Positions 31,411 through 33,336 of a stretch of 39,125 bases of DNA are shown here, piece by piece. The notes below the pieces were generated by a model that saw only the letters and a list, made by a program, of their open reading frames with translations, made no database searches and was not told the origin of the DNA. Both the position numbers and the translations under genes were made by a program. This stretch comes from an uncultured Gammaproteobacteria bacterium (GTDB lineage Bacteria > Pseudomonadota > Gammaproteobacteria > Poriferisulfidales > GCA-002705445): positions 1 to 39,125 of the forward strand of contig CAJWIN010000005.1 of assembly GCA_913042035.1 (NCBI GenBank), given 5' to 3'. Every line of letters begins with the position of its first letter. Position 1 is the stretch's first letter.

Positions 31411-33336
31411 CTAGGCAATATTCATATTAAGAATTCCTTCCATTTTTTCGGCTGTTTCAGATTTACCAGTTCTACTGTCACCAATCATAGCTACTGTAAC
31501 ATCAACTTCGTTTAAATCTTTTCCTAATTTCTCTCTCTTTTTAATAGCAAATTCTTTGACAGACACTATTAATGATTCTGCTAGTCTTATTGGGCCTTCT
31601 TGCTCAATTTCTTCCCTATTTTTAAATCCAGAATCTAAAACTTTTTCGTCAGTATTACCTTCATACACTCCTGCCATTAGCATGCTATATGCTACACCGA
31701 CTTCCATATCTCCTGTTTTCACTAATTTTTCAATTGTTGAGATTAATTCTTCTTCTGTGTCAGTATACTTCTCATATAAATCTTTATGAAGGATTGTTCC
31801 ATCATTATCTTTCAGCAAAGGAAATGGGTTTGCCCAATAACTAATCTCTGTGCCACCTCTTCCAGTCTGCGTGCTTCCAGCAGCGCATCTTCTTCCATCG
31901 TGAAAATGAACAATTGCATCTTTTACTGGCATTCCCGTATCAACCATTGTTTCTCCAGGTTTCTTTAAATCATAATTATTTATATAAAGTAATAAATCTA
32001 AATTACTTCCAGTAGAAACCTCGTTCTCTTCTGCCACAGGAACTATCTGTCTAGCATTAGTTCCAGCAGAAGCGTTATAACCAATTTCTCTTCCAATAAG
32101 CTGGAGTTTTGCTTGTTCGCTAAATCCATCTAAACATGCAAATGCTCCAATCTCAGTGCCATAAAATTTCAATTTTTTTAATTTATCACCTTCATTTTTA
32201 TAAAATTCTGCCTTACCCATATCATCAGCTTTAATGTATATATCTGAAATAAACGGCTCGTCAGTATCCTTATCAAAACCAACAACATATCTATTGCATC
32301 CGCAATGCAAAGGAAAGTCTCCTTTGAGAATAGCAAGAACATTATGTAATGTTAAAATTGGTTTTTTACAATAACCAAAATAACCATACTCAGGTAAATC
32401 AGGAACAAGTCCAATTAATATATCGTTTTCCTTATCATTGTAAAAACCTAGATCTTTTTCTGTTGCCCCCGGATATCCAAAGAAAAATATTCCGTCTGGT
32501 TTTTTATTTACAAAATCTTGATCGATTTTATATAATGGGAATAAATTTAATAATCCTGGCTCCATCTCTATACATCCTCTAGACTTATGTATGTAAGCGG
32601 TTATTAACCATTTTCCTACACTCAATGGCACAGCAACCCAGTCGTCAGGTTCAAAATTATCTAAGTTCAAAGGATTGTGATTTAACTCATAAAATGGAAA
32701 TGCTCTTTTGTTTACAGATGTCTCGTAATGTACTCCAGTTTTAATATCCGCAGTAACAGTCAAGTTTGTATGAGCAAGCTTTGAATAAGCTGGGGGAATA
32801 TTTCCAAAATGACCAGATATTTCTCCAGCAGTTACATTTGGCGATGCATCTAATCCATGTGATCTTGAAACACCGTGGCCAAGACCAACTCTATCAAGTA
32901 GTTTTCTTCTTGTAGCAATAATTAGCTCAGAAAGATTTTCTGCTTTATCAGAAATCTTTGTTTTGAATGTTTTTTGAGATTCTGATCCAGAGGTTACAAC
33001 ATCATTATTCATTCTAACTAATCTGGAAAAACTTTTGTTTCTAAAGTGATGATAACAGCCATCGAGAAATCTAACTATTGCTCGATCTCTTTCTAATTCC
33101 GCACCCTTGGCTTCTCTTTCGAAAATCTGAAGAATATCTTTCAAAGTTAAATCATTAATAAGCTCTATTTTCTGTTTAGCTTCTTGAGAATGTTTTTCCC
33201 CTTTCTTCTCTAGATCCTCCAGATATTCCTTCTTATATATCTTTAGATATCTTGCAAAAGCATAACTTCTTAAAAGCTGCTCAGATGTTGCGCAACTATC
33301 TTTAATTTCTAGTATTGATTCCACTCTATTCCCCAT
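31411..33336 (-). CDS. Uncharacterised 641-aa protein with C-terminal HprK/PEPCK-like Walker A motif
   Basis: Long uninterrupted ORF. Distinctive motifs include HYETSVNKRAFPFYELNHNPLN, PLHCGCNRYVVG, ASAGTNARQIVPV, LDLLLYINNYD, GRGGTEISYWANPFP and, in the last ~25 aa, VTVAMIGDSRTGKSETAEKM. I could not assign a named family. Confidence 0.8.
   Translation of the reverse strand: MGNRVESILEIKDSCATSEQLLRSYAFARYLKIYKKEYLEDLEKKGEKHSQEAKQKIELINDLTLKDILQIFEREAKGAELERDRAIVRFLDGCYHHFRNKSFSRLVRMNNDVVTSGSESQKTFKTKISDKAENLSELIIATRRKLLDRVGLGHGVSRSHGLDASPNVTAGEISGHFGNIPPAYSKLAHTNLTVTADIKTGVHYETSVNKRAFPFYELNHNPLNLDNFEPDDWVAVPLSVGKWLITAYIHKSRGCIEMEPGLLNLFPLYKIDQDFVNKKPDGIFFFGYPGATEKDLGFYNDKENDILIGLVPDLPEYGYFGYCKKPILTLHNVLAILKGDFPLHCGCNRYVVGFDKDTDEPFISDIYIKADDMGKAEFYKNEGDKLKKLKFYGTEIGAFACLDGFSEQAKLQLIGREIGYNASAGTNARQIVPVAEENEVSTGSNLDLLLYINNYDLKKPGETMVDTGMPVKDAIVHFHDGRRCAAGSTQTGRGGTEISYWANPFPLLKDNDGTILHKDLYEKYTDTEEELISTIEKLVKTGDMEVGVAYSMLMAGVYEGNTDEKVLDSGFKNREEIEQEGPIRLAESLIVSVKEFAIKKREKLGKDLNEVDVTVAMIGDSRTGKSETAEKMEGILNMNIA

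Follow-up and report, generated by a model that had tools for sequence, protein, structure and literature searches.

In the largest class of nucleotide-binding proteins, no element is better conserved than the Walker A motif, or P-loop. In the ATP-dependent phosphoenolpyruvate (PEP) carboxykinases (ATP-PEPCK; PF01293) it lies in mid-chain, within the motif order KK, His, P-loop, DD, Arg; in the Escherichia coli enzyme, PckA, K213, H232 and D269 bind Mn2+ and K254/T255 hold the nucleotide. Motif order is rearranged in the circularly permuted GTPases RsgA/YjeQ and YlqF, which are themselves P-loop NTPases. HPr kinase/phosphorylase (HprK; PF07475) carries a P-loop of the form GxSxxGKSE, which is not terminal, together with a DD pair. 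HprK and PEPCK have been placed in one kinase family (PMC1079889).

Here we describe a family of gammaproteobacterial proteins with counterparts of the KK, HC, P-loop, DD, NxR and T-x-R-G-x-x-E elements of ATP-PEPCK, from which they differ in their N-terminal part and in carrying the P-loop last. The P-loop and DD pair are shared with HprK, whereas the upstream KK motif and the downstream segments are absent from that enzyme. In RsgA/YjeQ and YlqF the permutation involves entire blocks, with G1 still ahead of G2/G3; in the present family the P-loop unit is the only one to stand at the end of the chain. A PEPCK with its P-loop moved to the chain end is an active site rearranged by nature in an unusual way, and a search of mainly openly available literature returned no description of a permuted PEPCK.

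A conserved protein that ends at its Walker A motif

The gene occupies positions 31411..33336 on the minus strand (33336..31411) of the window, by which we mean the whole 39,125-nucleotide stretch of contig CAJWIN010000005.1 analyzed here. Its frame is intact and encodes 641 amino acids plus a stop; the protein ends ...VTVAMIGDSRTGKSETAEKMEGILNMNIA-stop, 15 residues beyond GDSRTGKS. The preliminary description of this DNA had reported an intact open reading frame of this length, a C-terminal Walker A motif with about 15 residues remaining, and a setting between valS and a divergent ribD-like gene; all three hold, and the strand, which it did not give, is minus. The true start is probably not the annotated-style ATG at 33336 but the GTG at 33324 (Val5), because relatives align from Val5 (homologue N-termini read V/M-E-x-I/V-LEI, and the MGNR ahead of it has no counterpart in them) and because a GGGGA stretch directly precedes this GTG. 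One copy of the gene was found in the window's own assembly.

Searches of 55 related genomes, then of 369 genomes of the same class, yielded 28 full-length members including the window's own, with relatives 54-96% identical to the window protein and sampled carriers in 12 of the 270 genera of the class. The preliminary description had allowed that homologues might lack GxxxxGKS or run well past it. The segment DSRTGKSE (D620-E627) is instead invariant in 26/26 aligned members, and every one of the 28 full-length proteins ends 14-15 residues after the Walker Ser. Since all relatives terminate at the same place, the window copy is not truncated, and that explanation was ruled out. Within the genus dN/dS is 0.03-0.04, and, judged from these comparisons, the C-terminal motif is under selection.

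The gene was not found in two genomes of the window's own genus, G003 and G004 (the latter 92% complete). In a one-contig genome of 2.4 Mb, the homologue (G062:C1:4622-6525) breaks near residue 400 and continues in a second, overlapping frame; the cause may be a genuine frameshift, an error in sequencing or gene decay. A weak N-terminal match in another genome of the same genus as G062 (G202:C1:650956-651126; 33% over 58 residues) is possibly a gene remnant.

The window gene is convergent to valS and divergent from the RibD-like gene, an arrangement kept in the window's genus and in the related genome G011; in the sister family f2, valS and a pepA-like gene still adjoin. Outside these three groups no conserved neighbour of the gene was found, which suits a stand-alone enzyme.

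Native members fall below family cut-offs

With the native sequence and profile, no Pfam, NCBIfam or PDB family was matched. The family does give weak direct matches to PEPCK: the families most commonly hit by native members were PF01293 and the PEPCK model NF006821, always below cut-off. The window protein itself did not match PF01293, whose Pfam gathering cut-off is 26.5 bits, and the best native member reached E 0.058, below that cut-off. One PF00821 (GTP-PEPCK) protein, compared with the family in native and in re-ordered form, gave a probability below 1. Matches to GPAT_N, PglK, a syntaxin-binding protein and an exosome protein were small E-value tails and were judged to be chance. A phage search with the window protein returned no match, and a single-sequence AlphaFold model had a pLDDT of 35, unusable for judging the fold.

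A plasmid-encoded relative fills the gap in the family

A six-frame search of plasmids with the window protein returned one match (tblastn E 1e-14), an annotated PEPCK of Limosilactobacillus fermentum that we call P0002 (AYP99509.1; plasmid CP033373.1; locus L034:5599-7308). The window protein is 27% identical to P0002 over 397 residues (BLASTP E 2e-26), and the family aligns with it colinearly (hhalign probability 99.9, E 6.6e-32), across alignment residues 13-509 and with the KK, His, Asp-Asp-Met-Gly, NAR and ANPF motifs common to both. The two differ in that P0002 has its P-loop in the normal mid-chain place and ends about 70 residues earlier, with no P-loop at its C-terminus. The alignment gap in the family falls at the exact site of the P0002 P-loop, GDSGAGKSES: this lies between ...PIHGSMVRIKF and FDDMG in P0002, where the window family has a short loop. 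In a second alignment, window residues 609-641 pair with P0002 residues 349-381 (hhalign E 8e-5).

A search of the class with P0002 found only the window family. Its matches break off near 344 and pick up again near 378 in many genomes; in several, the break falls at 344-349 and the new start at 372-380. We also considered whether window residues 500-605 are homologous to the C-terminal end of P0002, as visual inspection suggested, and rejected this, as the score was no better than that of shuffled sequence. P0002 is itself a divergent PEPCK, scoring 23.9 bits against PF01293, slightly under the 26.5-bit cut-off.

P0002 aligns with ATP-PEPCK in the normal order over 272 columns (probability 96.4, E 1.1e-9; E 8e-10 with E. 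coli PckA added) and thus bridges the family to PEPCK, although this canonical-order bridge is one sequence whose PEPCK name is itself an annotation. Through this chain of relatives, the family is, by sequence comparison, homologous to the PEPCK superfamily in the broad sense. The PF01293 cut-off is not reached and the motif order differs, so that the family is not a member of PF01293 as defined, though it belongs to the PEPCK superfamily by homology.

Re-insertion of the C-terminal segment raises similarity to PEPCK

For homology detection only, we cut the final 35 columns from the family alignment, placed them in silico at positions along the whole protein and compared each re-ordered version with both ATP-PEPCK and P0002. 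The score of the native order against ATP-PEPCK is 32.9 (E 4.5e-3), which is also the scan median over all positions; insertion at columns 345-370 raises the score to 55-62.0 (best E 6e-7), and insertion at 380 and 390 keeps part of the gain (50 and 49). With P0002 as the target, the score climbs from 243 to 290, and the best positions are 347-365. The gain thus peaks at columns 345-365, the P-loop junction, and the scan shows, at the level of homology, that the P-loop element belongs between HCGCNRYVVGF and KADDMG. In a Pfam scan two re-ordered members matched PF01293 at E about 0.04 and 13 bits, which is below the cut-off; one native member and one misplaced control gave nothing in the same scan.

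On this evidence the Walker A unit has almost certainly left its place within the catalytic domain and now forms the very end of the chain, where Walker A follows Walker B. The preliminary description had proposed a circular permutation of a PEPCK- or HprK-like enzyme. Displacement of the P-loop unit is borne out by P0002 and by the scan, but a circular permutation of the whole chain is not, since the N-terminal part stays first; as the alignments have it, the relocation is a permutation inside the C-terminal catalytic domain. Affinity to ATP-PEPCK spans about 200-270 residues, which upholds the first half of the proposed family assignment, while HprK matches at the P-loop only.

Predicted active site

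The landmarks of the ATP-PEPCK active site can be followed along the window protein, all on the minus strand. YFGYCKK (residues 319-325; 32362..32382) aligns by hhalign with E. coli PckA Y207..K212 K213, and Y319, F320, G321, Y322, K324 and K325 are invariant in 26/26 members. Next comes PLHCGCNRYVVGF (residues 342-354; 32275..32313), in which H344 corresponds to E. coli H232 of HCSAN and P342, H344, C345, G346 and R349 are invariant among the 26 aligned members. The junction DKDTDEPF (residues 355-362; 32251..32274) is the canonical P-loop slot: both canonical PEPCK and the L. fermentum relative have the P-loop unit at this place, which is empty here. Beyond it lies the Walker-B-like IYIKADDMG (residues 366-374; 32215..32241), the counterpart of E. 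coli GDDEHG; K369-G374 are invariant across the 26, and E. coli D269 corresponds to D371 or D372, the Asp register being uncertain by one.

In GTNARQIVPV (residues 425-434; 32035..32064), R429 corresponds to E. coli R333, and the 26 aligned members all retain N427, A428, R429, Q430 and P433. The segment TQTGRGGTEISYWANPF (residues 489-505; 31822..31872) also has an E. coli counterpart, TERGITEP aligning to T489-E497, with T489, T491, R493, G494, E497 and W501-F505 invariant in the same 26. The upstream motifs PLHCGCNRY, IYIKADDMG and GTNARQIVP, which the preliminary description had picked out by eye, are therefore real, with H344, D371/D372 and R429 invariant. Last comes the relocated beta-P-loop-alpha unit NEVDVTVAMIGDSRTGKSETAEKMEGILNMNIA (residues 609-641; 31414..31512), delimited by its alignment to P0002 349-381 and by the re-insertion scan. 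Within it, the Walker A motif GDSRTGKS (residues 619-626; 31459..31482) has S621, K625 and S626 in the places of E. coli S250, K254 and T255. The P-loop at 619-626 thus follows Arg 429, at variance with the PF01293 order, yet every mapped ligand (K325, H344, D371/D372, S621, K625, S626 and R429) is invariant. No equivalent of the E. coli substrate Arg, R65, which lies in the N-terminal domain, was found in the alignments, none of which starts before E. coli residue 137; the invariant R211 is only a candidate counterpart.

The moved unit comprises a beta-strand, the P-loop and the following helix, about 33 residues in all, and the chain now runs from the N-terminal part through the KK motif, the His, Walker B and the substrate and nucleotide loops to Walker A. 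We propose that the C-terminal strand-loop-helix returns, on folding, to the slot it held in the ancestor, next to the KADDMG strand; the tail so placed would restore a normal PEPCK active site, with K325, H344 and D371/D372 as putative metal ligands, K625/S626 at the nucleotide phosphates and R429 at the substrate. The predicted reaction is oxaloacetate to PEP and back, with ATP or another phosphate donor.

If only the beta-P-loop-alpha unit has indeed moved while every mapped ligand stayed invariant, this unit would be transplantable as a module, and the family would offer a natural system for testing such transplantation. An ancestral role as building blocks has been proposed for beta-P-loop-alpha fragments, a subject treated in PMC7758060 and PMC4739770.

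Alternative explanations

We judge it probable that the family is a PEPCK-superfamily enzyme with its Walker A unit relocated to the C-terminus, interconverting oxaloacetate and PEP; the odds on PEPCK activity itself, as predicted from homology and motifs, are likewise favorable. The main rival accepts the same fold and relocation and makes the protein a small-molecule or protein kinase of HprK type; we keep it, since the two enzymes belong to one fold family (PMC1079889), but consider it unlikely. GDSRTGKSETA does share Asp/Glu features with HprK GDSGIGKSETA, and the family diverges strongly from PF01293. Yet when two HprK proteins were tried as relatives they aligned over only 18-33 columns at the P-loop (probability about 8), before or after re-ordering, as against about 200 columns, including the upstream KK, for ATP-PEPCK; HprK membership was rejected. 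Moreover, several carriers encode a PF07475 HprK as a separate gene, and the family gene has no conserved partner.

The other readings concern how, and whether, the terminal unit works. It might be supplied in trans, the tail of one subunit completing the active site of another by swapping, in an obligate or regulated oligomer: the unit does sit at the chain end behind about 100 poorly matched residues (520-605, with no significant match to the L. fermentum relative) that could be a linker. Cis placement is simpler, however, and nothing points to exchange between oligomer subunits, so we regard this arrangement as quite improbable. Improbable too is the notion of the tail as a detachable ATP-binding element that enters the active site of a neighbouring subunit, with catalysis or regulation dependent on tail exchange; the family would then be more than a re-ordered PEPCK, a P-loop enzyme with a naturally split site. 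That the protein is a PEPCK relic, non-catalytic or decaying, might be suspected from the frameshift split in G062, the weak match in G202 and the absence of the gene from G003 and G004, but strong purifying selection, catalytic residues invariant in 26 members and long persistence across about 12 genera make it very improbable. That nothing was relocated and the C-terminal GxxxxGKS is an independent P-loop lookalike we find scarcely credible: the segment is short and its direct alignment to ATP-PEPCK alone is weak (probability 15), but the re-insertion gain is position-specific, the segment exactly complements the gap against the L. fermentum relative, and the motif is invariant in 26 members.

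One further family bears on the limits of the superfamily. DUF4914 (PF16260) has weak similarity to the L. fermentum relative around the His, P-loop and DDMG, in canonical motif order, whereas the window family matches it at the P-loop only. A DUF4914 protein at G195:C166:203-2032 has the same landmarks, its P-loop being of GKSE type, and they too follow the canonical order. These similarities suggest that DUF4914 is another branch of the PEPCK superfamily; no mention of DUF4914 was found in the literature searched.

Genome context and PEP metabolism

Of the 29 carriers, 27 lack both ATP-PEPCK and GTP-PEPCK, but because ATP-PEPCK is present in no more than 81 of the 339 genomes sampled from the class, the missing enzymes are weak evidence. 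No PPDK or PEP synthase was found in the window's genus, G011 or f2; in that genus the family protein is the sole candidate found for making PEP and, on its homology, is most likely a PEPCK-type enzyme. In G018, a carrier with a closed-looking one-contig genome, we found enolase, Pgk, a GapA/Epd-type dehydrogenase, Tpi, Pyk and a distant PfkA match, and no match to PckA, PpsA, FbaA or GlpX; a partial PpsA match there overlaps a match to PTS enzyme I. Class I FBPase was found in none of the 15 genomes tested, and, with GlpX lacking in G018, a complete gluconeogenic route was not assembled from the genes found. The physiology therefore agrees only weakly with the PEPCK reading.

As members fall below every Pfam and NCBIfam cut-off, metabolic models of the carrier genomes would overlook PEP formation by them, and the PEPCK assignment, if true, would fill an annotation gap. 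G018, a reduced genome lacking canonical PEPCK, also has two separate PEP carboxylase matches, at about 1426008-1428566 and 1460165-1462834.
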